A stretch of DNA of 45,416 bases. Origin: a virus. Position numbers and translations under genes: made by a program. This document shows, one piece after another, positions 633 to 45,393 of this stretch. The stretch is taken from IMG/VR virus record IMGVR_UViG_3300021403_000021, positions 1-45,416 of that record; one strand, written 5' to 3'. Numbering within the stretch: position 1 is the stretch's first letter; each line of letters starts with the position of its first letter. The notes below the pieces were generated by a model, which did no database searches, was not told where the DNA came from, and worked only from the letters and a program-made list of their open reading frames with translations.

Positions 633-826
633 TATTCGATTACCTCGAACTGTTTAATCAGAGGCTCAATATCTGCCTCAAGAACCCAACATGGGTAGTC
701 TGGATTAGGATCAGAGATAAACTTTACAATATAAAGTCCTCTCTTGACTTGTTTAATCTCTCTAACATCTAATGGATTAATTAAAGTCTTTCCGCACCTA
801 ACTAATTTTGGTTTCAATTTAGGCAT
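632..826 (-). CDS. Hypothetical protein, 64 aa
   Basis: A small basic protein with no recognised domain, predicted to be mostly beta strand. Start and stop are each coupled to a neighbour through TAATG overlaps (826 upstream, 632 downstream), so it is translated as part of the recombination operon. The overlaps and the absence of gaps make it a real gene. Its position directly before the Sak4-like ATPase suggests an accessory role, but nothing in the sequence shows what it does. Confidence 0.7.
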   Translation of the reverse strand: MPKLKPKLVRCGKTLINPLDVREIKQVKRGLYIVKFISDPNPDYPCWVLEADIEPLIKQFEVIE

Positions 827-1185
827 TATATATCCTCTTCAGCTACATTGACAGTTGTTTTCTTTAATCTATCTGCAAGACTTTCTACTCTATCCTGAGC
901 TATCTCAGACGCAACTAATTCCGACTGAACGTATCTAGTATTCCCTTCAGGATCTTTTATCCTTCGTTTATCACACGCACGACAATGCGGCTTCGCCTGC
1001 CTAATACTTACGTTGTCCATTCTGAATTCTTTTAGACAACGATTGCAGTAAGTAAGCTTACCTAAAGCTAGCGCACAGTCAATTTTGAATGAGCATTTCT
1101 CATCAGTGCAGAAGAATACCTCATTACCAGTAGACTTATATGTATGTCGTTTAAACGTATGAATATGATTCTGAACTCTTAACAT
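826..1185 (-). CDS. Zinc-ribbon protein, 119 aa
   Basis: The ATG at 1185 is preferred over an in-frame GTG upstream, because it lies two bases past the stop of the nuclease gene (1188) and leaves a typical compact junction. Cysteine pairs are visible: CTDEKC and CNRC in the first half, then HCRAC in the middle. They are followed by a charged helical C-terminus. The spacing suggests one or two zinc-binding ribbons that could contact nucleic acid or protein. The stop overlaps the next gene as TAATG. The function is unknown; a link to the neighbouring nuclease or ATPase is inferred from position only. Confidence 0.7.
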   Translation of the reverse strand: MLRVQNHIHTFKRHTYKSTGNEVFFCTDEKCSFKIDCALALGKLTYCNRCLKEFRMDNVSIRQAKPHCRACDKRRIKDPEGNTRYVQSELVASEIAQDRVESLADRLKKTTVNVAEEDI

Positions 1186-1187
1186 GA

Positions 1188-2087
1188 TTATTTCTTCTCT
1201 AAAATCTTTGTGACATCCCAAGGCTCGATATCGTTTAGCATTCCAATCTTAAATAACCTAGCTGGCTCACCAGAAGATTCACATACATTAGCATATTCAC
1301 ATTGTCTATTGAACTTATCACAAGAAGTAAAGTTCATAGGCCAAGAGTTTTCTGCAACGCATTCAACATATCTCTGAGCAATCTTAACTACGTTAAGTCT
1401 CCATTGCTCTAAGATTAGTTCATCATAGCACATGAACTGCCTAATATGCTTCTCATCTGGCTCTAAGCTAGCTTGAAATCCAACACGATTAATTCTCATC
1501 ATGTCAGACTTAGCAGCATAGCAATAGTTCATGAACTGATTAGATAGCCGTTTCAATGGCCATTTCCTATCGTAGCTCTTATGGTCAACAGGAAGCCGTT
1601 CGTATGTCATCTGTCTGGTATGCCAATTGATTAACAAATCAATCTTACCAGTCATGTAGATTCTCATATACTCATCTTCAAACAGCAAGTATATGAACGG
1701 CTCTTCTACTGCAAGAATCTCAAAGGTCTGATCTTCAAATTCCCAATGCCTGAGATTCTCTTCAGCTACTTCTACAATCCTACCAACCTCTGTAGGATCA
1801 AGATCGGCCTCCATAGAAGTAACTTTAATCTTCTCAATACATAGCTCTAACGCAACGGACGGCTTCGTAAGCTTCTGTAACTCTTTGTAATATACTTCAT
1901 AGCCGTTATGAAGCAAAGTTCCTCTGTCAAGCTGTGGAGCTTTAGTAAATGGACCTTTATTTAAGACATAGCGTAGGTAAAATCTCTGGTCACAGAGCTC
2001 AAACATATCAAGCTGTGATGCGTCCCAGATTACATTTATCTTCTTTATCTCTGTTGGTTGTTCTACTTGTTCTACTTGTTCATTCAT
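1188..2087 (-). CDS. PD-(D/E)XK nuclease, Cas4/AddB-like with Fe-S cysteines
   Basis: A 299-residue protein. The nuclease core is visible as H60 (GTLLH), D150 (GKID) and D168-H169-K170 (VDHK), the usual H-D-DxK arrangement of RecB/Cas4-family exonucleases. A cysteine at 32 and three near the C-terminus (256, 263, 269, the last two as CEYANVC) match the four-cysteine 4Fe-4S cluster of Cas4 and AddB. In this family such proteins resect DNA ends with a 5'-3' or mixed polarity. The gene sits in the recombination operon. ATG 2087 overlaps the previous stop (TAATG). It has no CRISPR context, so it is a phage recombination nuclease and not an adaptation protein. Confidence 0.85.
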   Translation of the reverse strand: MNEQVEQVEQPTEIKKINVIWDASQLDMFELCDQRFYLRYVLNKGPFTKAPQLDRGTLLHNGYEVYYKELQKLTKPSVALELCIEKIKVTSMEADLDPTEVGRIVEVAEENLRHWEFEDQTFEILAVEEPFIYLLFEDEYMRIYMTGKIDLLINWHTRQMTYERLPVDHKSYDRKWPLKRLSNQFMNYCYAAKSDMMRINRVGFQASLEPDEKHIRQFMCYDELILEQWRLNVVKIAQRYVECVAENSWPMNFTSCDKFNRQCEYANVCESSGEPARLFKIGMLNDIEPWDVTKILEKK

Positions 2088-3926: not shown

Positions 3927-5458
3927 CGCTTTTTACCTCTAGTAGTAAGAGCAATCGCAAGTTCTGACATTAGACTATCTTGGTCCCATGTTATCTTTTT
4001 GTTATCCAGTGTAGAACTCATGATTGCTCGTTTCTGTTCAACAAGTTCTGTGAAGAACTCATCAATTGTTCCACCAGCAATCATGTAAGTAATACTAACT
4101 GGATTAAGCTGTCCGAAGCGATGAAATCTATCCTCTGCCTGTTCTTCTTTAGCTGGATTCCATTGCCTCTCAAGCATTACTGCGTCTGAGCAATACTGAA
4201 GATTTAATCCTTCACCGGCTGATTGAGTTGACGCAATCAGTATTCTCGAAGGACTATTCTTAAAAGCTTCTCCAATATCTTCCTGACCACCAGATTTGAG
4301 TAGCATACAAGGTGCAAAGCTACCTTCTGCTAACCATTGATTCATCTTTGCTTCTAATAGACTCATCACAGAATGATGATGCACAAAGATTGTCAACTTA
4401 CGGTCTGTAGACGAAAGTAGAAAATCAGTAGCAAAGTCTATACAATCTTCAACTTTACCAATTCCTGTAATTTCTCTCATCCTAGTCATGATGGCAATCT
4501 TAGCCGCTCCGCCTTCGAAGCTATTGTCATACATGGCTTCTTCTAAATCCTTTAAGGCTTTCTCATAGGATTTATTAAGCTTAGGATCAAGCTCTACATA
4601 CTCAAAGTTTCTAGTCTTTTCTGGTAAATCTGGTAATACTTCTTTCTTTGTTCTCCTGATAATGATATCCTTTGTAATTTCATGGAAATTATCAGGATTC
4701 TTTAGACCACCAACTTTTGTTCCCCAGCCATTGTTATACGAATCACAATGCCAGTCAACAAACCTTTGCCAAGATGGGAATCTAATAGGATCGAGTAGAT
4801 TCAGAATCGTGAAATACTCACCAGCATTGTTTTCAATTGCAGTTCCTGATAGCCCGATAATATGTTCTATATTATGAGCTTTAACAAGCTGCTGGACGGC
4901 TTTCGCTCTACCCGACGTATGGTTCTTAATCTTCTGACATTCATCTAATATCAAGCACTTAATATTAACCATGCTGAATACTTCTGGATTCTTCAGCATA
5001 TCATACGTAGTGACAATGATATCAAATCCCGGTATCGCAACTTCTTTGCTGGTAAAGACGGCTTGCACTCTCTTTGATTTAGTCCATCGCATCATTTCTC
5101 TTTGCATCTGGACTTTAACCCTTGTCTTTGTGACAATCACACAAGGTGTTAATTCTTCCATATGCAGCGATAGTAAACCACCAGCTTGAACTGTCTTACC
5201 TAATCCTTGCTCATCACCAATTAAACAACGAGCATTTGCTTTCTCTGCGAATTCAACTCCGGTAAGCTGATATGGCATTAACTTTCTGCCATCAGTTGAG
5301 ATGATTTCGCCTGATGCCTTACTCATTGAAGTAGACATCATTACATGTCCACATTCAAGAGTAATCATCTTCGTCGAACCTAAATCAATAAAAGACTTCT
5401 CAATTGCGATTTTATCGCAAGTTGGGCATCTTTTCTTGAGTATTGAAGATAATGCCAT
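3914..5458 (-). CDS. SNF2-family DNA helicase/translocase
   Basis: A 514-residue superfamily 2 protein. An N-terminal zinc-finger-like segment (CPTC ... CGHV, residues about 11-39) precedes the helicase core. Motif I is GDEQGLGKT (about residue 81), motif II is DECQ (about residue 172), and the C-terminal RecA lobe ends in QWNPAKEEQAEDRFHRFGQ, the typical SNF2 motif VI. Phage SNF2 proteins are double-stranded DNA translocases that remodel protein-DNA or recombination intermediates. This one sits between the nuclease operon and an unknown 224-residue protein. It has the normal compact phage length and no nuclease fusion. All core motifs look intact. Confidence 0.92.
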   Translation of the reverse strand: MALSSILKKRCPTCDKIAIEKSFIDLGSTKMITLECGHVMMSTSMSKASGEIISTDGRKLMPYQLTGVEFAEKANARCLIGDEQGLGKTVQAGGLLSLHMEELTPCVIVTKTRVKVQMQREMMRWTKSKRVQAVFTSKEVAIPGFDIIVTTYDMLKNPEVFSMVNIKCLILDECQKIKNHTSGRAKAVQQLVKAHNIEHIIGLSGTAIENNAGEYFTILNLLDPIRFPSWQRFVDWHCDSYNNGWGTKVGGLKNPDNFHEITKDIIIRRTKKEVLPDLPEKTRNFEYVELDPKLNKSYEKALKDLEEAMYDNSFEGGAAKIAIMTRMREITGIGKVEDCIDFATDFLLSSTDRKLTIFVHHHSVMSLLEAKMNQWLAEGSFAPCMLLKSGGQEDIGEAFKNSPSRILIASTQSAGEGLNLQYCSDAVMLERQWNPAKEEQAEDRFHRFGQLNPVSITYMIAGGTIDEFFTELVEQKRAIMSSTLDNKKITWDQDSLMSELAIALTTRGKKRWSL

Positions 5459-5459
5459 C

Positions 5460-6134
5460 TTAAAACTTCAGTTTAAGAGGATCAAACGGCTCTTTAGGTT
5501 CATCAGCTTTAGCGTCGGCTTCTTCTTTCTTAGTTTCATCTACCTTTGTCTTAACGAAACTAATCAGATTAACCTGCTTTTCTGTAGCCGTCTTTTCGAC
5601 TGTTCCGATGATTTTCTTTCTAGTATCCTCATCAACGAAACCGGCTAACATATCATTCAGCTTCTCAACCTTGTTCATTCTCTTTTTACGAGTATTAACA
5701 GTGTTGATAGCATCAGATACTAACTGATCTTCACCTGAAGTAGTATTGACCAACCACTCTTTAGTCTTGTGCGAGCGGCTAGCACTATCTTCACGCTTCT
5801 TATCTACAACAGCCGTAAGTCTCGCTTTAGCTTCAAATGCAATCTGAGCTAAAGTTTCCTCATGAATTCTGAAATCTTCAGAGCTCATAGATGCAATTAG
5901 CATCTTCTCGTCGTTGTAGAACTTTTTGAATAAATCTTCGTTCGATTCAGCCATTGTTCTTTTGCTCTCTTTGAGCTGGTAATATCCAGATTCTAAATCT
6001 ATTGCGATTCTAGATAAGTAATGAGTCCTTAGCCAACTGATTACTTGATTAGTCTCAAGCTGAGTCGCATCGCTTAAATCAAACGCAGCGGCTAGCTTGA
6101 GACTAACGAAGGAATCAATTAATGATTTGCTCAC
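5460..6134 (-). CDS. Hypothetical charged helical protein, 224 aa
   Basis: The protein is almost entirely helical, with many Lys/Glu residues and a C-terminal tail of Lys/Glu/Ala followed by a terminal PLKLKF. It ends one base before the SNF2 gene starts. Tails of this kind can serve as protein-interaction hooks, as in ssDNA-binding proteins, but here the tail is mixed in charge. No domain is recognised. As the second gene of the leftward operon it is probably made early. Confidence 0.7.
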   Translation of the reverse strand: MSKSLIDSFVSLKLAAAFDLSDATQLETNQVISWLRTHYLSRIAIDLESGYYQLKESKRTMAESNEDLFKKFYNDEKMLIASMSSEDFRIHEETLAQIAFEAKARLTAVVDKKREDSASRSHKTKEWLVNTTSGEDQLVSDAINTVNTRKKRMNKVEKLNDMLAGFVDEDTRKKIIGTVEKTATEKQVNLISFVKTKVDETKKEEADAKADEPKEPFDPLKLKF

Positions 6135-6140
6135 TTCACC

Positions 6141-6362
6141 TTAGAGTTTAGCCAGTTGAAGCTTAAAGTAGTTCAACTGATTATTGCAATGAAAAATCAT
6201 TCCATCAATGAATTCTCTTGACTGATTTAGCCGGTTAGAGCTGCAAACTACTCTAAGTGGGCTACTCCAGTAAACAATCATATTTTCATATTGCTTAATT
6301 GATTGCTCATAGATTGGAGTATACAGCTTTCTAAGTGATTCGACTTTAGGTGTTGGTTTCAT
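6141..6362 (-). CDS. Hypothetical protein, 73 aa; first gene of leftward operon
   Basis: I chose ATG 6362. An in-frame TTG at 6380 would add six residues. The strong Shine-Dalgarno (AGGAG, complement at 6397-6401) does not point at either start. It points at ATG 6390, which opens a seven-codon reading frame ending two bases before the gene's own sequence. The protein is helical with two isolated cysteines and has no recognised family. It is the first gene after the promoter at 6600-6628, with a leader of about 230 bases containing phased repeats and a dyad. Confidence 0.6.
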   Translation of the reverse strand: MKPTPKVESLRKLYTPIYEQSIKQYENMIVYWSSPLRVVCSSNRLNQSREFIDGMIFHCNNQLNYFKLQLAKL

Positions 6363-6366
6363 TTGA

Positions 6367-6390
6367 TTAATCCCAAACAATGATACACAT
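6367..6390 (-). other. Seven-codon micro-ORF with ideal ribosome binding site
   Basis: AGGAG is followed by six bases and ATG at 6390. The frame reads MCIIVWD and stops (TAA at 6369-6367) five bases before ATG 6362. The next frame overlaps it from TTG 6380. This could be a translational-coupling leader, or the result of a single-base indel that separated a longer N-terminus from the gene. Confidence 0.45.
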
Positions 6391-6430
6391 TTGATTCTCC
6401 TATTGATTAACGAACGGCAGAGTCTAGATT

Positions 6431-6490
6431 ATATCGGAATATATTGGAATATATCTGCATATATCCAAATATATCGGCATTTATCGGAGT
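6431..6490 (+). repeat. Six 10-bp phased repeats, left array
   Basis: Six consecutive 10-base units with the loose consensus ATATCGGAAT fill exactly 60 bases. The units are ATATCGGAAT, ATATTGGAAT, ATATCTGCAT, ATATCCAAAT, ATATCGGCAT and TTATCGGAGT. A 10-bp period puts each unit on the same face of the helix. The right array (6871-6930) carries the complementary orientation. The likely role is an iteron array for an origin-binding or regulatory protein, or phased bent DNA. It lies in the leader of the leftward operon. Confidence 0.75.
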
Positions 6491-6498
6491 CAGCGCAT

Positions 6499-6520
6499 GG
6501 TGTCCGAAAAAGTGGACACC
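6499..6520. promoter_or_regulatory. Dyad GGTGTCC-N8-GGACACC
   Basis: A perfect 7-bp inverted repeat with an 8-base spacer, in the transcribed leader about 80 bases downstream of the leftward promoter at 6600-6628. It shares the core TGTCC-N8-GGACA with the dyad at 7751-7772. It could be an operator or an RNA hairpin. No T-run follows on either strand, so it is not an intrinsic terminator. Confidence 0.55.
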
Positions 6521-6599
6521 GTCGTCATAAGTTGTTGAGGTCAAAGCACTTACGGCCGACGGCATGGGAAAATTCATCTTCAAAAATCTACACGACCCC

Positions 6600-6628
6600 A
6601 GTATACCATAAGTCGATACCGTTGTCAA
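6600..6628 (-). promoter_or_regulatory. Sigma70-type promoter for leftward operon
   Basis: On the minus strand, TTGACA (complement 6623-6628) is followed by a 17-base spacer and TATACT (complement 6600-6605). Both hexamers are near-consensus and the spacing is optimal. Transcription would start near 6593 and run through the left phased-repeat array into the gene at 6362 and the SNF2/nuclease operon. Confidence 0.8.
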
Positions 6629-6667
6629 CCCCTGCCCTATTCAATTTTTTGAATTTCTATTGTTAAT

Positions 6668-6728
6668 CCTCTATATACTATACTATATTTAATAATATAT
6701 ATTAAAACATGTATCGTATATATAGAGG
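6668..6728. other. AT-rich palindromic segment, possible DNA-unwinding element
   Basis: CCTCTATATA (6668-6677) and TATATAGAGG (6719-6728) form a perfect 10-bp inverted repeat around about 40 bases of nearly pure A/T. It lies between the two inverted phased-repeat arrays. An easily melted segment in this setting is what an origin would need. This role is inferred. Confidence 0.5.
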
Positions 6729-6811
6729 GGTAATGTAGAAATATTAGAATAGCTGCCCGCCTTAGGGAACGGGGTCGACGTTCTGAGGGGTGGGGGGATG
6801 CCTTGAAAAAC

Positions 6812-6855
6812 GACGTTTTCACCATGAAAACGCGCGTAAACATTGACGTTTTCAC
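6812..6855. repeat. Three copies of CGTTTTCA in +/-/+ order
   Basis: GACGTTTTCAC occurs at 6812-6822 and again at 6845-6855, with the inverted form TGAAAACG at 6825-6832 between them. The cluster sits just before the right phased-repeat array, and a short G-rich stretch (6786-6798) precedes it. These look like binding sites for a replication or regulatory protein. No protein can be assigned. Confidence 0.5.
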
Positions 6856-6870
6856 GTGAGGCACCGCTCC

Positions 6871-6930
6871 GATAAATCCCGATATTTGCCGATATATCCC
6901 GATATATGTCAATATATTTGGATATCTTGC
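6871..6930 (-). repeat. Six 10-bp phased repeats, right array (inverted)
   Basis: Six 10-base units (GATAAATCCC, GATATTTGCC, GATATATCCC, GATATATGTC, AATATATTTG, GATATCTTGC) carry CCGATATAT, the complement of the ATATCGG of the left array. The two 60-base arrays face each other across 380 bases that hold the promoter, the AT-rich palindrome and the CGTTTTCA sites. Confidence 0.75.
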
Positions 6931-6995
6931 TATGTAGAACTTACATAGTGAATATCGGCGATTAATTGTTTTTGGAATTAACTAACTGAATTGCA

Positions 6996-7184
6996 CTCAG
7001 GTTTTATTTGGCTTGGCAATTTATACCAAACTAGGTAAAACCTGAGAAAATCCTAGATAGATAGCTAATAAGGTAAATAGACTTGCTTAAGGTCTAACCT
7101 AAGACTCTATCAAATCTTAGTCCACTTCCCCTGAGTGACTCGGCAGGATGAATTATATATTAATTCTGCCTATCGCCACTCAGG
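6996..7184. other. Gene-free stretch with successive strong hairpins
   Basis: No gene is seen between 6391 and 7241. This part folds strongly. CTCAGGTTTTA (6996-7006) pairs with TAAAACCTGAG (7036-7046), with TTTGG/CCAAA nested inside. A short hairpin lies at about 7085-7102. CCTGAGTG (7130-7137) pairs with CACTCAGG (7177-7184), with GGCA...GAATTA/TAATTC...TGCC nested inside. All pairs are perfect, so the strand cannot be decided. It may be the structured 3' end of the transcript from the promoter at 7818-7846, or a separate RNA. Confidence 0.5.
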
Positions 7185-7241
7185 ACGCTCTGAGCTTATT
7201 AGTCTATTTATACTCGCTCAGTCGAGTTTACTAACTGATTG

Positions 7242-7709
7242 TTACTGCTTAACCTGCGCAGCAATAGCATTTTCGAAACCCGGCTTAATGAGTGCAACAG
7301 CATCATCAAGCGAAGCATCAGCTCCAGCCATGTAATTACGAACAACGAGACGGAAGCGATTACGAACTTCCTCATCCCAAGTCGGATTGACATGTTCCGC
7401 AATGGGGTCAGAAGCGTCAGTGTAAAGCTTCTCATTATAGCCAGCGATAGCCAGCTTAGTGAGTGCAGCATCATCCGCTACCTTAGTAGCAGTAATGAAT
7501 TCCTGCATTGACTTCGGAAGCGTATCAGGAAGCGATTCATCAAATCGCTCATAAACGAAAGGCATAGAGCCTTTACCGCGAGTATAACCAAAAGCAGCGC
7601 GGGTGCCAATACCAGTTCGTCCAGCATTAGCAGCATCTACCTTTGCCTGATATTCCTTATTCGTAGCTTCTTTCTCGCTATCCTTCTGTTCAACAACTGC
7701 GTCAGCCAT
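7242..7709 (-). CDS. Hypothetical early protein, 155 aa, own promoter
   Basis: A single gene with its own canonical promoter (7818-7846) and a leader dyad. The frame is open from GTG 7748. ATG 7709 is preferred because AGAAAAGGG lies upstream at a usable distance and the product then begins MADAVVEQ; ATG 7721 is a second option. The protein is soluble, with a charged helical N-terminus, then GRTGIGTRAAFGYTRGKGS, and a helical C-terminal half. No family is recognised. Its isolation, strong host-type promoter and flanking palindromes suggest a highly and early expressed phage protein, such as a host-takeover or regulatory factor. That role is inferred. Confidence 0.75.
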   Translation of the reverse strand: MADAVVEQKDSEKEATNKEYQAKVDAANAGRTGIGTRAAFGYTRGKGSMPFVYERFDESLPDTLPKSMQEFITATKVADDAALTKLAIAGYNEKLYTDASDPIAEHVNPTWDEEVRNRFRLVVRNYMAGADASLDDAVALIKPGFENAIAAQVKQ

Positions 7710-7750
7710 TTGCTTAACCATCCCTTTTCTATCTAGTTTACGATGCACGG

Positions 7751-14362: not shown

Positions 14363-16105
14363 ATGGACGACGTCGAGTTAGCTACAGTAGAAGATTTAGA
14401 AGTTGCTAAAGCTGAAGCAGATCTAGTCACCTCTACTAACAAGTTCTTAAGAGATGAATGGAGGCCAAATAGAAAGCAAGAAGCTTTCTTACGACTTCCA
14501 TTCACAATTAAAGAAGGCTTACTAGGAGGTGGTGCAGGTTCAGGTAAGTCGGATTGTTTATTACTTTATGGAATAGTTCATAAGTTCCATCACAATCCTA
14601 AATTTAAACAAGTCTTCATGCGCAGAACTCATGCTGACATGAAGAAGGAAATCATCCAGAGAAGTAGAGAACTATATAGAAGGTTAGGAGCTACATTCAA
14701 CGCATCAGACATGATCTGGACTTTTCCAAGAATAGATCAGTTTGGTAGCGGAGCTAAGAACGACGGAGCAATTATTATTCTTGGACATTGTGAGAATGAA
14801 TCCGATGTCCATATGTATGACTCAGCCGAAATTAGTCTATTCACACCGGATGAATTAACTAACAACACTGAGTTTATTTATCTTTACATCACTCAGGAGA
14901 GAAACAGAGCACCTAAAGGATCAGGATTACCAAGTATCACCAGAGCGGCTGCAATGCCAGGTGGAGTTGGTCATACATTCGTTAAGAAACGATTTGTAGA
15001 TCCTTTTCCTGCAGGTGGTAAGATTATTGTTGGTAAGGGTGGTAACAAAAGGATTTATATCCATGCTACCCTTAGAGACAACAAAGATCATATTGATCCT
15101 ACGTATGAGCAGTCTCTTGCTGGTAGACCTGAAGCTGAAAGAAAAGCAAAGCAGGACGGCGATTGGTCAGCCTACTTAGGATTAGTATTTGATGAGTTCA
15201 GAGTTCATAAATATCCAGATGAACCTGCAAACGCTTTACATGTTGTAGATCCGTTTGGTATTCCTCATTGGTGGCCTAAGTTTGTATGCGGTGACTGGGG
15301 CCATAGAGCAATGACATATGTATGTTTCATTGCTGTATCACCGGATCTTAGAGTTTACGTTTATAGAGAACTGCACTGGACTGGTATTAAAATCTCTGAG
15401 TGGGCTCCTATTCTACGTAGCTTTATAGAAGAAGAGCAACCTAGGATTGTTAAGTTTTGCCAGTCTACGAATCAAGATCACGGAAATGAACATACAATCC
15501 GTGAGCAGATTGAAGCCGCAATTGGTAGAACAATTGAGGTAAGTAAGAATAGCGCAGGTTCTAGAGTTTCAGGTAAGATGCTTCTTCATGAATACCTTAG
15601 GTGGAAAGAGTTACCTAAATTATCAACGAAGAACATGCCAGTTTATTCTGAAGAGAGAGCTAGATGGATTCTTCGGAATAAAGGTTTAGATGAGTATAAG
15701 GCTTACTTAAAGTTATTCGAGCCACCGAAGATTGAAGATAATATTCCAAGACTTCAAATCTTCTGTTGTGATGCTACTACTCATGAAGGACATCCACACT
15801 GTTGTCCTGCATTAATTAATAGTATCCAAGCTTGCAGTTACGATAAGCCTAGGAATAATAAACCGGCTGAAGATGTTGCAGAGTTCGAAGGTGATGATCC
15901 TTATGATACTCTGCGATATGCAATTGAGACAGCAGATAGTTACTTTGTAGAGTCTACAGACGAGTTGCAGCGGCTAAAGAGAGAGTCAGATGCTATGATG
16001 AGATTAGCTATGACTCATGACCAGACTGCATTCTATAGGCAGATGCGAAGTATTGAAGCAGACAATAAACTTTCAGTAGTTTCTAAATTTCACGGACGAC
16101 GATAA
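14363..16105 (+). CDS. terL: Terminase large subunit
   Basis: A 580-residue packaging motor. Walker A is GGGAGSGKS (residues 55-63), followed by an arginine-rich strand (QVFMRRTH), and Walker B is LFTPDEL (about residue 160). The C-terminal nuclease domain starts with VCGDWG (about residue 309), whose aspartate is the first metal ligand of the RNase H-like fold. The length is normal for the family. The ATPase pumps DNA into the prohead and the nuclease cuts the concatemer. The terminally redundant contig would fit headful packaging, but the sequence alone does not prove it. The stop overlaps the next gene (TAATG). Confidence 0.92.
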   Translation: MDDVELATVEDLEVAKAEADLVTSTNKFLRDEWRPNRKQEAFLRLPFTIKEGLLGGGAGSGKSDCLLLYGIVHKFHHNPKFKQVFMRRTHADMKKEIIQRSRELYRRLGATFNASDMIWTFPRIDQFGSGAKNDGAIIILGHCENESDVHMYDSAEISLFTPDELTNNTEFIYLYITQERNRAPKGSGLPSITRAAAMPGGVGHTFVKKRFVDPFPAGGKIIVGKGGNKRIYIHATLRDNKDHIDPTYEQSLAGRPEAERKAKQDGDWSAYLGLVFDEFRVHKYPDEPANALHVVDPFGIPHWWPKFVCGDWGHRAMTYVCFIAVSPDLRVYVYRELHWTGIKISEWAPILRSFIEEEQPRIVKFCQSTNQDHGNEHTIREQIEAAIGRTIEVSKNSAGSRVSGKMLLHEYLRWKELPKLSTKNMPVYSEERARWILRNKGLDEYKAYLKLFEPPKIEDNIPRLQIFCCDATTHEGHPHCCPALINSIQACSYDKPRNNKPAEDVAEFEGDDPYDTLRYAIETADSYFVESTDELQRLKRESDAMMRLAMTHDQTAFYRQMRSIEADNKLSVVSKFHGRR

Positions 16106-20744: not shown

Positions 20745-20753
20745 GAGATTGTG

Positions 20754-22067
20754 ATGTTCATTAAGAGCGGCTATAATAAGCCGTGGGAACAATCTCCGGA
20801 TGGCTATCTTCACGCTGTTGTAGAGTCGCAGGTTACGGCTCTTGAGCTGGAGCGAGTTATTCCGAAGATTAGAACTCTTTTTGAACGCGATGATCGCTTC
20901 TACGCGAATATTAAAAAGCGCGATGTAGAAGTTGTTTCACAGCGTTTAATGCGAGTTCCGTTAGAAATTAGCCCCGGTGGATCATTCCAGTATTTTGATC
21001 CTAACGGTGGTGATTTAGGTCGTGGTGGTGGTCCGACCTGGGATAAGGCTACTCTTAATCCTGTTTATGTTTCGCTGAACATTGAGTATACGAAGCTTAC
21101 TCAGTGGGCAACGGATAATGATAGGAAGGCTATTACTCAGGCCGTTCGTAAACTTACGGCTACTGCGTTAGATGAACTCCGGCGTCAGCTGGATTCACAG
21201 TTAATGCAGGATGGAACCGGAACTGTTGGAACTATTTCAACTGCGACTCCTGGAGCCGGCTTTGATACTTACGTATTAACGGCTGACTTTGGTGCTCGTT
21301 TAGTTCGATTTGGTCAGACTGTTCAGGTTTTTGATAGCACATTAGCTACGTTCCGTGGTAAGGGTCAGATTACTTACTGGGACGTTGCTACTAGCACTAT
21401 TGAAGTCACTCCTAATATTGCTGGTGCTACTCCGACTGACGTTTTAGTTGTTGATGGGTTAACTTCTCCTGCTTCGCTCCCTGCGATGTATGGAGTTCCC
21501 TATCACGATTCTAACGCTAGCTCTGGCACTTGGTTAGGTTTCAATCGTGCTACTACTCCGCAGATTCGTTCCAATCGTGTTAATGCTGGTGCAGCCGCTC
21601 TTTCGCTGCCTCTTGCTCGTTTAGCTATTAACGCTATTGGTAACCGAGTCGGTATTGACAATAACTTCAAGCCTAATGCCTGGCTGCATCCTTGCCAGAA
21701 ACAGGCTTATGAAGATATTGGTCAGGCTGTTATTCAGATCAAACAGGACAATCGCAATAAGTCCGAAGGTGATCTGGATATGTATTTCGATAGAATGCAG
21801 TTCGCTGGTGCTCCTGACAAGCCGTCCTTTAGCTGGAATAAGAAGAGAATTGATTTCGTCTCTGATGAAGTTTGGGGACGTGGTGAAACTCTTCCTGTTG
21901 GCTTCTATAAGACGGATGGACGTAGCATCTTCGAAATCCGTTCTTCTTCCGGTGGTGTTGTTGCATCGGATATCTTCTACATGGTTAACGGATGTCAGTT
22001 CTTCGTTAACAATCCTGCTGCGACTGCTTATATTGATAACCTCGCTATTCCTTCTGGCTACGTTTAA
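20754..22067 (+). CDS. Major capsid protein, HK97-like
   Basis: A 437-residue shell protein. ATG 20754 is chosen over GTG 20751 because AGGAG is ideally spaced. The sequence has an N-terminal helix (YLHAVVESQVTALELERVIP), a Gly-rich loop (ISPGGSFQYFDPNGGDLGRG), the long spine-helix region (DNDRKAITQAVRKLTATALD) and a beta/alpha C-terminal half, all consistent with an HK97 fold. It follows the scaffold. Synonymous codons here include more C/G-ending forms than in neighbouring genes, as expected of a very highly expressed gene. No prohead protease is recognised nearby. Confidence 0.88.
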   Translation: MFIKSGYNKPWEQSPDGYLHAVVESQVTALELERVIPKIRTLFERDDRFYANIKKRDVEVVSQRLMRVPLEISPGGSFQYFDPNGGDLGRGGGPTWDKATLNPVYVSLNIEYTKLTQWATDNDRKAITQAVRKLTATALDELRRQLDSQLMQDGTGTVGTISTATPGAGFDTYVLTADFGARLVRFGQTVQVFDSTLATFRGKGQITYWDVATSTIEVTPNIAGATPTDVLVVDGLTSPASLPAMYGVPYHDSNASSGTWLGFNRATTPQIRSNRVNAGAAALSLPLARLAINAIGNRVGIDNNFKPNAWLHPCQKQAYEDIGQAVIQIKQDNRNKSEGDLDMYFDRMQFAGAPDKPSFSWNKKRIDFVSDEVWGRGETLPVGFYKTDGRSIFEIRSSSGGVVASDIFYMVNGCQFFVNNPAATAYIDNLAIPSGYV

Positions 22068-36644: not shown

Positions 36645-36845
36645 TTATGAATCGGTATCTTTTTCTTCCTTCGGTATCTCTTGCACAGGTGCATCTGGTA
36701 TACTAAGGTCCTCCTTCTGTCTAGCAATATAATCCTCTACAATCTCTCTACCTTTAGTAGAAGGTTTACCATCTCCCATGAGATATAGAATTCTATAATC
36801 ATCTGCAGTCAATCTAAATGTAACAGTTCTATCTCTTTTCATCAT
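36645..36845 (-). CDS. Ribbon-helix-helix-like protein, 66 aa
   Basis: The sequence RTVTFRLTADDYRILYLMGD followed by a second helix (STKGREIVEDYIARQ) fits a ribbon-helix-helix DNA-binding fold, in which the first strand contacts DNA. An acidic/proline tail of about 20 residues follows. The start (ATG 36845 or 36842) overlaps the upstream gene by about 17 bases. It is the best candidate for a phage DNA-binding regulator in this window. Confidence 0.55.
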   Translation of the reverse strand: MMKRDRTVTFRLTADDYRILYLMGDGKPSTKGREIVEDYIARQKEDLSIPDAPVQEIPKEEKDTDS

Positions 36846-39385: not shown

Positions 39386-40645
39386 TTACAATCCTTTGCT
39401 TCTTAGATGTTCATCATATTTCTGCCTAGGTTCACCAGTCAATCTAACTAATCTATCCTGATTCTTACCAACTCCAGTAGGAATTACGGCTACCCAAGCC
39501 ATCTCTCTTAGATTGTCTATAATCCTATCAATAACAACCGCATCTCCGCCTCCACGCTGATAGAATTTACGAAGGATTATCTTTCTCTCTAGTTCACAAT
39601 CTGGAGCTTCTAAAAGCATATCAATTAGTAACTTAGTCTGTTTAGTTAATGGATCTTGAGAGCTACCTGATGTAGTTCTATCAGCCGCATAGACCAGACT
39701 AGTTACTTTGTCAATCGAATCTCTAATATGATACTCTCTAATGTATCCATCAAAGTCATATTCAGATAGAGCTAAACACATAGATACTTTAAGTGAATGG
39801 TCAGGAACTCTATTTAAGAAGCCGGTCTTATCAGGAGGCTGAGTATTTCTCCATACTCGTCTCCAAGTATTGAAAAAGTTCCGAGCGGCTTCATCTGGCT
39901 TCAACTGACCTTCCATACTTGCAATTTTCTGTAAATGAGGGACAAACTTTGGCGCTAAATATGTATCAAACTTATCAGGCTCTTTAACTAGTTTCTCTTC
40001 GTGACTACTTTCATCTAGGAGATCAATATCTTGTGATCGCTTTTCTTCATAGATAATTAAGTTTCGTCCAATATACCCTCCCTCAATATTTACCTGTGGA
40101 ATAGAATCGTAAAAATGACTAGGAGAGCTACCAAATAATGCAGTAATGTAAGGATTTTTGAGCTTTTCTGCCCCATCGCCTTTAAGTAGATTCGTCCACT
40201 CAGGATTGTAATGACCATCGTAAAGATCAGTGAGGATGGTGAGAGCGTCTGGATCTGCGATGATAGCTGTTGAAAGCTCACCATTTACAATATATCCTCT
40301 AGAATCAAGAATGATCTCTTTACCTTCTAGTTTCTTAGCCGTTGAGAGCTCTTTAACGACTGCCTGAATAGAACTTCTACCTGCTATTACTCTGGTAATT
40401 TCGGCTCGATTTACAAGGTTTTTTGCTCTATTAATAGGGAAACCTTTACCTAGCCCACTTTCACCTAGTAGGATAATGTAAAGATTTGGCTTATAGTTCA
40501 AATCACCCTTTAAAGTTCTAAGGTGGTAATTGTTTCCAGCCGCAGCACTTATACATGTTAAAAAGCTCCACCATAACCATGATTTAGGAGTTTCTACGTG
40601 CTTACACTCATCTACTAAATCATCAATCCAATTGACCTTTGACAT
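39386..40645 (-). CDS. DUF3987-like primase/helicase-family protein
   Basis: A 419-residue protein. The first 60 residues (SWLWWSFLTCISAAAGNNYH) and LYIILLGESGLGKGFPINRA match the phage DUF3987-type NTPase layout. The P-loop is GESGLGKG, with Gly where Ser or Thr is usual, so nucleotide binding may be altered. A strand with acidic residues follows (GALTILTDLYD-like region at about residue 132). The C-terminal 100 residues look like a winged helix (LERKIILRKFYQRGGGDAV). It lies in the replication operon beside MazG and polymerase genes and probably acts at replication forks. Confidence 0.65.
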   Translation of the reverse strand: MSKVNWIDDLVDECKHVETPKSWLWWSFLTCISAAAGNNYHLRTLKGDLNYKPNLYIILLGESGLGKGFPINRAKNLVNRAEITRVIAGRSSIQAVVKELSTAKKLEGKEIILDSRGYIVNGELSTAIIADPDALTILTDLYDGHYNPEWTNLLKGDGAEKLKNPYITALFGSSPSHFYDSIPQVNIEGGYIGRNLIIYEEKRSQDIDLLDESSHEEKLVKEPDKFDTYLAPKFVPHLQKIASMEGQLKPDEAARNFFNTWRRVWRNTQPPDKTGFLNRVPDHSLKVSMCLALSEYDFDGYIREYHIRDSIDKVTSLVYAADRTTSGSSQDPLTKQTKLLIDMLLEAPDCELERKIILRKFYQRGGGDAVVIDRIIDNLREMAWVAVIPTGVGKNQDRLVRLTGEPRQKYDEHLRSKGL

Positions 40646-41208: not shown

Positions 41209-41630
41209 GATTTAATCACCTCAACCCATGCAACCTTATGTTTAGATAAGGCATACTTAACAGTCCAACATCCACCAGATTTGATATGAGTATCAGTTTT
41301 ACAGTGATAGCAATAATCAAATTTCATACCATTATAACTAGCAGGTAATTTATCAACTGTAATACATACTACTCTATCTGAATAATCAGCAATCTGCATA
41401 TTTCTCTTTTTATAGAACTCCCAGTTTAAATTACTAGGAGAGAACTCCTCCCAACCAATACCTGCACCTTTAGCTTCTTCTATAGCCCAGATATCAATAC
41501 CACCAAGATGACATTTACCAGATACTACTTTAGTAGCATTTCTAATAAGATTTCTGATAAGCTCTCTAGCCGCTGTCTCTGTAGCTTCTGTAAACTTAGC
41601 GGCTTCAGAACCTACAATACCTATAATCAT
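41205..41630 (-). CDS. SLOG/DUF2493-like Rossmann protein, 141 aa
   Basis: ATG 41630 is chosen because AAGAAGGTG lies at the right distance and it overlaps the polymerase stop as ATGA. The protein opens MIIGIVGSEAAKF, followed by VVSGKCHLGGIDIWAIEEAK. This is the GSR...SGG-type pattern of DprA/SLOG-like proteins that bind nucleotides or nucleic acids. A CYHCKTDTHIKSGGC segment near the end adds Cys/His residues. The function in phages is not known. Confidence 0.65.
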   Translation of the reverse strand: MIIGIVGSEAAKFTEATETAARELIRNLIRNATKVVSGKCHLGGIDIWAIEEAKGAGIGWEEFSPSNLNWEFYKKRNMQIADYSDRVVCITVDKLPASYNGMKFDYCYHCKTDTHIKSGGCWTVKYALSKHKVAWVEVIKS

Positions 41631-44128
41631 AACTTCACCTTCTTCATATTTGCCCAAGTAGTATCAGATACTTCACAGTCACAAGGGATAACTAATACGA
41701 AATCGCGCTTTAAGGTGCAATACTTGGAGAAGTCAATCGGCTTAGTCATATGCTTCTGCAAAACTCTAGCATACTTCTCCCAGCCGTTCTCAGGAACTTG
41801 CAGTAATAGAGAGTCATGATTCTCAGAGATGAATTGAACATCTTCTCCCTGAAACTCTTCAAAACAAGCTATTCCTGCTCCTTGAACAAGATGTGCAACT
41901 GTCCTTTGTGGGATATTGGCAAATCCTTCTTTATAGATTGAATCATCCATTCTACCCCAAAAGGTCCTAACTCCGCCAAAAGGATCAATAAGTGTTCTGG
42001 TATTACTGATTTCTTCGATGATTTCATTATGGAATACCGATCTAATTTTGGGAGATGCAGCATGAAATAGCTCTAGCATCTGACCAGCTTTCCACTCAGA
42101 TATCCTCATAGCTATATCGAACTTCTGAGCATCAGTATTGAAATTCAACATGAACTCGCCTTTGCCCATGTTGTAATTTCCAGCATGTCTAATCTTCTTA
42201 CCTACGAACCTTTCAGGGCCGTCTTTATCTAACTCATCTACTATTGGAACTCTTTCTTTCTTAAGACTTAGTTCCTTTGTATAAGCAAAGCAAAGACCAG
42301 CCGTCCTGCGATGAATATCAATCTCATCGAATGCCTGTAGTAACTCAAAATCTTTGCTTAGGACGGCTACAACTCTAGCTTCAGCTTGCCCAGAATCAGC
42401 CTGTAAGAAAATTTTCCCTTTGTCCGGAATAAACATTGAACGGATATCTTTTGCGAGCCGTCCATGTTTTGAGATTGTATGAAATCCCAGGCCAAGTCGC
42501 GTTGGTCTAATAGGCTTCTTAAGAATTCCTGTAGTGCTTCTACAAGTCTCTGTTGCTGAGATATTGAAAGAAGTCTTTGCCCTTCCATCGTAGTCTGGGT
42601 GGAAGCTAATATCTCTGGATCGTTGAGTTCTAATACGCTTCTCTTCAAGGAGTGTTTCGAGGATCGCTTTCTGTTCGTCTTTTTTGGCATGATTAGTCAA
42701 CAACCTAACAATAGTATCTTCAGATGTAGGATTCCTCTTCATAAGCTTAAACTTCATCAGCTTATAAAGAAGATAGTGAACCTGTGGATAACTTTTTACA
42801 TTGATATCTTCACCGACTAATCTCGTGAGTTTTTCATGTTCTTCCTTTTCGAGCTTAGCGTATTTATGCTGTAACTCTCTTTGCTTAGCATGATCTACAT
42901 TGAAGCCGACGTTTTCCATATTTAAATAGAAAGCGTGCTTCCGCATCATGTAATTGTAGAAGTACTCAACAAGTGGAACTTTAAATTGTTCTGCTTGCGC
43001 TATTAGAGATAGTTCCTGCTCGGAATCAACTTCGAAATTTACAGCACAATCTTTAGCGTTATACTTAAACAGCTGAGCAATATTCGACTTACCTATTTTG
43101 AATTCTTTTCCTTCTTTTTTCCAGAACGGCTCTCTCGTCCATAAGGATGCAGCAACGTCCAGCCCTTTATCTGGTAATTCCGGGAATAATACTCTTGTTT
43201 TAAGCAGAGTATCGCTATATAGATGTAAACCGCGAAAGCCAATAAGTCCAAGCTTATATTCATCATATTTGAAGTTATGCCCGATGATCTTAATTCTTCG
43301 CAGTTGAACATCAATCATCCTCCAGCACTGTTCTAGTTCAAACAGTCCCATTGAGGTGAGTTCATTCTTGCCGATCTTCCTTAGAAGGGGTATAGAGATA
43401 GCATGAGAACTGTTAAAGGCAAAACCAACGCATACTGGAACACAATTAATACTTTCAATATCCACAACACAGCGTTCTCTATCTTTATACTCATCGAAGA
43501 ATCTGTGAGCAGTAAGAGAACTATTGCAAACAATAAGGTCACGAGCTGGCAAATTAAGTCTGCAAGAATCAGACTCTTCATAAGCACGTTTAATGTCATG
43601 TTCAATTAACTTCTTATATACAAATGGTAAGCCGCCGTCTCGTTCTTCTTCGCCTGATTGACGATTGAACAGAGCGGCTGGATGAATTGTTGGAACTACT
43701 TTAGTCTTTCCATCACGTGCAGTTAATATCGAACCTCTGTAATTAAGAATGCTATATTCATCTTTCTTATCATCAAAATCTAAAGGCCACCCCATTACTG
43801 CTCTGAGAGCATATCGTCCCATAGCAAGGATACAACGCGGCTTTAGAATTTCAACTTCCTTTTCCCATAGCAATCTGCACTGCTCATCTAAATCTATATT
43901 GATAAGATTCAGCTTCCTCATATCGTTAAAAGGAGGCTGATATTTACATAGATTCGTTATATACAGTTCATTTCTATCTATACCACAGGCTTCTAATATC
44001 TCATCGAACAATTCACCTGTCGGTCCAATGAGTGGTTTTAAGAATTCGTTTTCAATTCTACCTGGAGCTTCAGCTATTACCATTAGCTTCGGTTCTAATG
44101 GTCCTATACCTGGGACGTAGTTGGGCAT
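41627..44128 (-). CDS. UDG-DNA polymerase I fusion
   Basis: The 833-residue protein joins three units. Residues about 1-190 are a family 4-like uracil-DNA glycosylase (IAEAPGRIENEFLKPLIGPT and, later, HPAAL). About 215-380 are a DnaQ-like 3'-5' exonuclease with all three motifs (VVDIES, HNFKYDE, YNAKD). The rest is a family A polymerase with motif A (ADSGQAEAR, about residue 577), motif B (GKKIRHAGNYNMG, about 645) and motif C (ENHDSL, about 771). All key residues are visible. It would replicate the phage DNA, and the UDG domain could remove or sense uracil near the fork. The start lies seven bases after the previous gene, and the stop overlaps the next (ATGA). Confidence 0.92.
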   Translation of the reverse strand: MPNYVPGIGPLEPKLMVIAEAPGRIENEFLKPLIGPTGELFDEILEACGIDRNELYITNLCKYQPPFNDMRKLNLINIDLDEQCRLLWEKEVEILKPRCILAMGRYALRAVMGWPLDFDDKKDEYSILNYRGSILTARDGKTKVVPTIHPAALFNRQSGEEERDGGLPFVYKKLIEHDIKRAYEESDSCRLNLPARDLIVCNSSLTAHRFFDEYKDRERCVVDIESINCVPVCVGFAFNSSHAISIPLLRKIGKNELTSMGLFELEQCWRMIDVQLRRIKIIGHNFKYDEYKLGLIGFRGLHLYSDTLLKTRVLFPELPDKGLDVAASLWTREPFWKKEGKEFKIGKSNIAQLFKYNAKDCAVNFEVDSEQELSLIAQAEQFKVPLVEYFYNYMMRKHAFYLNMENVGFNVDHAKQRELQHKYAKLEKEEHEKLTRLVGEDINVKSYPQVHYLLYKLMKFKLMKRNPTSEDTIVRLLTNHAKKDEQKAILETLLEEKRIRTQRSRDISFHPDYDGRAKTSFNISATETCRSTTGILKKPIRPTRLGLGFHTISKHGRLAKDIRSMFIPDKGKIFLQADSGQAEARVVAVLSKDFELLQAFDEIDIHRRTAGLCFAYTKELSLKKERVPIVDELDKDGPERFVGKKIRHAGNYNMGKGEFMLNFNTDAQKFDIAMRISEWKAGQMLELFHAASPKIRSVFHNEIIEEISNTRTLIDPFGGVRTFWGRMDDSIYKEGFANIPQRTVAHLVQGAGIACFEEFQGEDVQFISENHDSLLLQVPENGWEKYARVLQKHMTKPIDFSKYCTLKRDFVLVIPCDCEVSDTTWANMKKVKL

Positions 44129-45105: not shown

Positions 45106-45393
45106 CTACGCAACCTTAGATAAGGCATCTTTCCAAACTTCGTAAAAGAGCTTATCTGTAAAATCTAATTTAGCAGGGAGACCTAATGCTGTCTTAGCCA
45201 TCTCATCTCCAACAGCAGCCGTATTAACGATACGATGTTCTGTGGAAGTTCCTGTATCAGAATTCCATTCCTTCTCAACTGAGAAGTGATAAATCTCAGT
45301 AAAGTTACCTGGAACACCAGATGCTACCTTATTACCAACAGAAACCAAAGTGTTAGTTTTAGTAACACTCATACTTCTACCAGAACCTTCCAT
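45106..45393 (-). CDS. Sak4-like ATPase, C-terminal part
   Basis: This frame is the C-terminal continuation of the ATPase at 1-632. The part 45275-45393 duplicates residues in the left copy, and 45106-45274 adds the last 55 or so residues (EWNSDTGTSTEHRIVNTAAV ... DALSKVA). The stop is TAG. The true gene is about 265 residues across the junction. About 100 bases separate it from the DUF669 gene, with a minus-strand TATAAT near 45054-45059 but no clear -35. Confidence 0.8.
   Translation of the reverse strand: MEGSGRSMSVTKTNTLVSVGNKVASGVPGNFTEIYHFSVEKEWNSDTGTSTEHRIVNTAAVGDEMAKTALGLPAKLDFTDKLFYEVWKDALSKVA

Follow-up and report, generated by a model that had tools for sequence, protein, structure and literature searches.

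Opposed arrays of helically phased 10-bp repeats around an AT-rich core mark a candidate replication origin in a family of uncultured phages

The HSV-1 oriS and the SV40 origin, in which inverted initiator sites flank a central AT-rich tract, belong to eukaryotic viruses and have few sites per arm and dedicated helicase initiators. Known iterons have a length of about 17-22 bp. Iteron origins are typically built from helically phased arrays beside an AT-rich unwinding element, and in the E. coli oriC closely spaced sites form two arrays of opposite orientation, whose wrapping is believed to put stress on the unwinding element (PMC5043065). Short repeats are also found in partition sites: R1 parC consists of two blocks of 11-bp repeats with a promoter in between, and the ParR protein of pB171 binds 10-bp repeats (PMC9426499, PMC5016525). 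In the PLE of Vibrio cholerae, a phage-related replicon, the origin has iteron-like repeats that lie in non-coding DNA (PMC7145576).

The window analysed here is a virus record of 45,416 bases. The original prediction of two inverted arrays of six 10-bp units was borne out (Table 1). Both arrays have a period of exactly 10 bp with six units per arm and are thus helically phased tandem repeats, and the two arms (6431-6489 and 6867-6925, 59 bp each) are 81% complementary. With 38 out of 50 matches at lag 10 in each array, they are at the top of the whole 45 kb, the next best stretch having 29 out of 50. A blind scan of the record for paired arrays returned exactly these two and nothing else, and a two-unit probe had nine matches in the record, all of them within the arrays, compared to 0.16 expected. 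The information content of the two sides is 9.7 and 9.2, and the maximum of min(left, right) at 1104 random genome positions is 5.47. The paired-array architecture is therefore real; it is also conserved and non-coding and has apparently not been described so far.

Table 1. Features of the window discussed in the text
Feature	Position	Strand	Remark
131-aa zinc-ribbon-like protein	826-1221		third candidate binder
Left array	6430..6489	+	six tandem 10-bp units, consensus TCGGAATATA in the frame of the related phages
Left-array units, in order	6430-6489		TATATCGGAA TATATTGGAA TATATCTGCA TATATCCAAA TATATCGGCA TTTATCGGAG
Dyad GGTGTCCGAAAAAGTGGACACC	6499..6520	.	a minority of relatives have GTCC-N-GGAC dyads close to the core
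Leader dyad GTAAGTGCTTTG...CAACAACTTAT	6527..6553	-	between promoter and array; two halves paired by eye
Early promoter TTGACA-17-TATACT (sigma70)	6600..6628	-	directed outward from the core; position conserved in relatives
AT-rich imperfect palindrome, candidate DNA unwinding element	6668..6728	.	least stable 60 bp of the genome
Terminator-like hairpin with two CGTTTTCA copies	6813..6833	-	not conserved
Three CGTTTTCA copies	6814-6821, 6825-6832, 6847-6854	+, -, +	
Right array	6869..6928	-	six 10-bp units, reverse complement of the left array
168-aa protein	7242..7748	-	adjoins the array region; possible array-binding protein; no fold match
Terminase gene	14363-16105		about 7.5 kb from the core
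DUF3987 helicase/primase	39386-40645		
92-aa protein, ParB/KorB/VirB-type helix-turn-helix	44135..44413	-	beside the DNA polymerase; favoured candidate binder

The AT-rich palindrome predicted between the arrays is present but is not a 10-bp palindrome: it is imperfect, with arms of 26 nt (6669-6694 and 6700-6725) that are 77% complementary, and it can be folded as a hairpin (z -3.6). When 60-bp windows are ranked by nearest-neighbour energy, the core comes out as the least stable one in 17 out of 22 genomes and as the second-least stable in four, the exception being G018 with a less AT-rich core; AT content had helped to locate the core, so that a part of this instability follows from the procedure. 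No other 10-bp arrays are as strong as these two in nearly every genome, and the strongest paired arrays thus fall together with the weakest point of the genome.

Relatives were collected from IMG/VR via the SNF2 helicase, the 168-aa protein, the 92-aa protein and the primase. In 34 non-redundant loci, the core was placed by AT content and TATATA only, blind to the arrays. The flanks of these 34 loci are self-similar at lag 10 (z=28.4) and its multiples 20, 30 and 40 (z of 15.6, 11.5 and 7.6), and the signal is gone at lag 60; all other lags are far below lag 10, with z at most 6.2. The lag-10 signal is limited to about -280 to -170 and +120 to +220 relative to the core. In the 18 loci where the arrays are strong on either side, the inner edges of the arrays are 278-378 bp apart. 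The similarity within the phage's own pair is higher in inverted than in direct orientation (0.59 vs 0.42, Wilcoxon p 7.6e-6), and the left array is usually closer to the reverse complement of its own right array than to the right arrays of other phages. Out of 18 genomes, 15, including this phage, have arrays that are unmatched by any of the 1104 random genome positions, and in G012, G013 and G017 the arrays exceed random positions only at p<0.01. These three belong to the clade-B phages with weak arrays, as do L039 and L063. Further array-positive genomes are G020, G023 and G024, and the more distant relative G028 is array-positive across its contig junction. The array pair is also found in an independently assembled contig of a metagenome-assembled genome (L303, JACPXY010000047.1). 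This contig of a relative with the same array layout was binned in a groundwater Pacearchaeota MAG, and the binning is probably wrong, because the promoters of the family are of the sigma70 type, which points to a bacterial host.

The layout thus recurs in about twenty related phages of an uncultured family with differing unit words: the unit is TCGGAATATA in this phage, TCGTAACGTG in G006, ACAGACGTTG in G004 and CCGGAGCCGT-like in G018. Conservation of the period in related phages had been proposed as a check, and it is the 10-bp period that is conserved, the unit sequence itself drifting. Since the unit sequence drifts among relatives, the A/T richness of this phage's units is incidental, and the drift argues for a protein-binding site and against intrinsic bending. 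Phased bent DNA, offered earlier as an alternative to an origin, finds no support in the family: AT-rich units are peculiar to this phage, the units of the relatives contain GC (e.g. TCGTAACGTG and CCGGAGCCGT), and the relatives hold the 10-bp period without a conserved A-tract.

Outside of the 10-bp group, the outgroups G031 and G033 have inverted arrays with an 11-bp period at the corresponding positions (p 0.007, the lowest value that the test allows), and their lags 9, 10 and 12 are not significant. The outgroup G019 has kept the AT core and the promoter, and its arrays are undetectable (p 0.44 vs random positions), which indicates that not all phages of the wider group have arrays. Across the 10-bp and 11-bp arrays, what stays constant is a unit of one helical turn, the inverted orientation and an AT core in the middle. 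Four named public phage records, whose replication genes are distant ones, have no comparable array pair. Moreover, no DNA-level relatives of the first 25 kb were found among 50,697 public phage records, and a conserved 438-aa protein (20751-22067), whose copies in 18 relatives are 64-81% identical to that of this phage, has no match at all in the same records.

In public contigs of the phage family, ends fall at the core more often than expected by chance, with 6 out of 42 ending within 150 bp of it compared to 0.66 expected. The observation concerns the AT cores of L031, L034, L054, L055, L056, L057 and L069 and the contig starts or ends of G021, G022 and G028. This enrichment would fit arrays that serve as a packaging (pac/cos) or recombination site, or as a purely structural element. 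Such a role is highly improbable, given that the break positions vary, that most complete contigs pass through the core, as expected for badly assembling AT-rich hairpins, and that the terminase gene lies at a distance from the core. The excess of contig ends probably arises during assembly, owing to the AT-rich palindrome.

The virus encodes a SNF2 helicase, a PD-(D/E)XK exonuclease, an SSB-like protein, a UDG-PolA fusion polymerase, a DUF3987 primase/helicase and a terminase. The replication module with PolA, the DUF3987 primase/helicase, the SSB-like protein and the recombination nuclease is part of the same early gene block. The DNA polymerase A (41627-44128, minus strand) carries a fused N-terminal family-4/UdgX-like uracil-DNA glycosylase domain. 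In the relative L009, the SNF2 helicase gene (4717-7317) has an intein-like insertion at the Walker A region. A gene for a RecA-like ATPase (Sak4-type by eye, 45106-45393) appears to span the contig ends, and the record is therefore probably circular or circularly permuted.

We consider the region 6430-6928 to be an initiator-dependent replication origin of the phage, with a probability of roughly 0.6, because it combines paired phased arrays and a central candidate unwinding element with an early replication block, and because no ParA homologue or integrase was found. As in iteron-type origins, the repeats are in tandem and helically phased, with an AT-rich unwinding element adjoining. The original prediction of an iteron-type origin with an unwinding element is thus borne out in part, with strong comparative support from the conserved period and from the core being the weakest helix of the genome. 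In 18 of the 19 genomes checked, no DnaA box (TTWTNCACA) lies closer to the core than 600 bp, which does not fit a DnaA-dependent origin of the oriC type. A recognisable initiator family was not found among the proteins scanned. The cumulative GC skew, suggested earlier as a check, turned out to be uninformative: its minimum is 2.8 kb from the core at a change of gene direction. As the minimum tracks the gene-divergence point and not the core, we dropped it as independent support for an origin.

The leftward promoter that had been predicted from the sequence is present and has a counterpart in nearly every locus, where one strong sigma70 promoter, with its start 45-90 bp away from the core, points outward through the adjoining array. 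In clade B, the gene for the 168-aa protein is directed away from the core, and a second promoter often directly borders the other array on its outer side. The 168-aa gene of clade A and of this phage is directed toward the core, and the array on that side has no strong promoter nearby. Because of this promoter-less array, the symmetry is centred on the core and not on the promoters. The predicted dyad GGTGTCCGAAAAAGTGGACACC was likewise found between the arrays. The leader dyad is the counterpart of the CAACRACTTACAG motif, which in many relatives is located between promoter and array. Three predicted CGTTTTCA sites do exist in this phage but are not conserved, being absent from all 18 relatives; as they are confined to this phage and two of the copies form a terminator-like hairpin, we rejected them as a conserved element.

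This arrangement of promoters is relevant for the strongest rival to the origin reading, in which the arrays are two operators: a phage regulator would loop the DNA over the early promoter and switch the early block, and the AT core would merely aid the promoter or the looping. Phased arrays are also bound by regulators, operator-like dyads lie near the promoter, and the strong promoter between the core and one array, together with the frequent second promoter in clade B, would suit such a switch. We nevertheless regard operators as rather unlikely, since the promoter-less array in clade A and in this phage is still placed symmetrically about the core at an unchanged distance, an operator with six exact one-turn units in each arm would be a large one, and the extreme instability of the core would be unnecessary for looping.

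Besides the promoters and dyads, other elements were observed in the vicinity. A 21-nt inverted repeat (81%) is found at 6996-7046, between the right array and a Pistol self-cleaving ribozyme (RF02679), which is located at 7168-7227 on the minus strand, just 3' of the stop codon of the 168-aa gene. In L038, a Pistol ribozyme (5475-5539) is likewise found just 3' of the 168-aa stop codon, and in L028 (4036-4103), L030 (5804-5862) and L047 (6058-6120) Pistol ribozymes occur in the early transcript past the array. None was detected in 14 further loci, mostly of clade B.

As the protein that would bind the arrays, we favour, with low confidence, the 92-aa helix-turn-helix (HTH) protein first and the 168-aa protein second. 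Every genome with 10-bp arrays has a 92-aa gene and the array-less G019 has none. A diverged form is found in G033 with its 11-bp arrays and in G032 and G035, where no arrays were seen, and is not found in G031. The 168-aa gene has the same distribution as the 10-bp arrays among genomes covering the region and is missing from the 11-bp outgroups; G021, G022 and G025 lack it but seem to break at or miss the region, so that they are not discriminating. The 131-aa protein is also present in G019. In Mantel tests of protein against unit distance, the 131-aa protein was the best of 22 families (rho 0.43, p 0.0005, partial p 0.03), followed among the favoured candidates by the 92-aa protein (p 0.015, partial 0.04) and the 168-aa protein (p 0.036, partial 0.15); this covariation is too weak to name the binder once corrected for the 22 families. 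The recognition helix of the 92-aa protein has a Q in clade A with TCGKA units and an E mainly in clade B with other units (p 5e-5), an association that is confounded with clade and whose consensus comes mostly from clade A. The 66-aa protein at 36645-36845, named earlier as a possible binder, was discarded, because it has no homologue in any of the 18 relatives.

The structure model of the 92-aa protein is confident (pLDDT 88) and has four helices including the HTH. Its closest structural neighbours in VIA-align are the DNA-binding domains of VirB, KorB, Noc, ParB and SopB with Z scores of 7.3 and below; the values for VirB (Z 7.3, rmsd 3.3, 73 aligned) and KorB (Z 7.0, rmsd 6.1, 82 aligned) are below the reliable threshold, and a Foldseek search gave no match below E 0.6. 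The predicted resemblance to HTH domains of the ParB/KorB type is thus suggestive only. The 168-aa protein is modelled confidently (pLDDT 93), and its fold searches returned no match in Foldseek and a best Z of 4.8 in VIA-align.

The resemblance of the 92-aa candidate to ParB, KorB and SopB domains would be in line with a partition centromere of the parC or tubC kind, where blocks of short repeats surround a promoter, a small adaptor assembles in a helical filament on them and the DNA is pulled by a motor. The split blocks of R1 parC and the ParR sites of pB171 are furthermore the closest published anatomy (PMC9426499, PMC5016525). A centromere is nonetheless improbable, more so than operators: a search for ParA homologues found none in 23 genomes (its controls worked), no recognisable motor was seen among the proteins of this phage that were scanned, and the R1 blocks are direct, whereas the arrays here are inverted (p 7.6e-6). 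The 23 genomes also have no tyrosine integrase, and there is no other sign of a low-copy plasmid state.

For the replication origin, which we prefer, the following mechanism can be proposed. A phage DNA-binding protein, possibly the 92-aa HTH protein or else the 168-aa protein, would occupy successive 10-bp units, one per helical turn, all from the same side of the DNA. The bound protein would form two short filaments of about six subunits each with opposite polarity. By constraining or wrapping the arms, the filaments could torsionally isolate the roughly 380 bp between them, upon which the AT-rich palindrome would open and the DUF3987 helicase/primase, the SSB and the PolA-type polymerase would load at the opened core. 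The outward early promoter might aid by transcriptional activation or primer supply and may itself be repressed by the same array-bound complex.

Tentatively, and with more doubt than for the origin itself, the phages might represent an undescribed class of phage origin. In such a class, opposed filaments of a small single-HTH non-AAA+ protein with one subunit per turn would open a central AT palindrome by opposed wrapping; the unit would be fixed at one turn (10 bp or 11 bp by lineage), and the recognition sequence and the protein would drift together. If the origin reading itself is right, paired inverted one-turn arrays around the weakest helix would be a sequence signature for origins in uncultured phages that requires no cultures or reads, and would point to a compact and apparently non-AAA+ initiation system. 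Since the units differ strongly between sister phages at fixed geometry, the family would provide a natural set of initiator and site pairs for origin recognition and opening.

Among the known systems, the PLE origin has iteron-like non-coding repeats in common with the phage region and differs by its longer semi-palindromic iterons and its RepA_N initiator. R1 parC, the ParR sites of pB171 and tubC share the blocks of 10-11-bp repeats around a promoter; these blocks are direct and come with a motor gene, whereas the phage arrays are inverted and a ParA homologue was not found. Iteron origins, such as the lambda ori and those of the plasmids P1, F, RK2 and R6K, have the tandem phased repeats and the AT-rich unwinding element in common with the phages (PMC5043065). 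Unlike them, the phage region has a 10-bp unit, two arrays of opposite polarity and a central unwinding element, without a DnaA box or a recognisable initiator family. The E. coli oriC shares the oppositely oriented arrays, but its unwinding element is outside of the arrays, its sites are 9-mers and it uses an AAA+ ATPase, while the phage region has no DnaA-box match. The HSV-1 oriS and the SV40 origin share with the phage region the inverted sites around an AT-rich tract.
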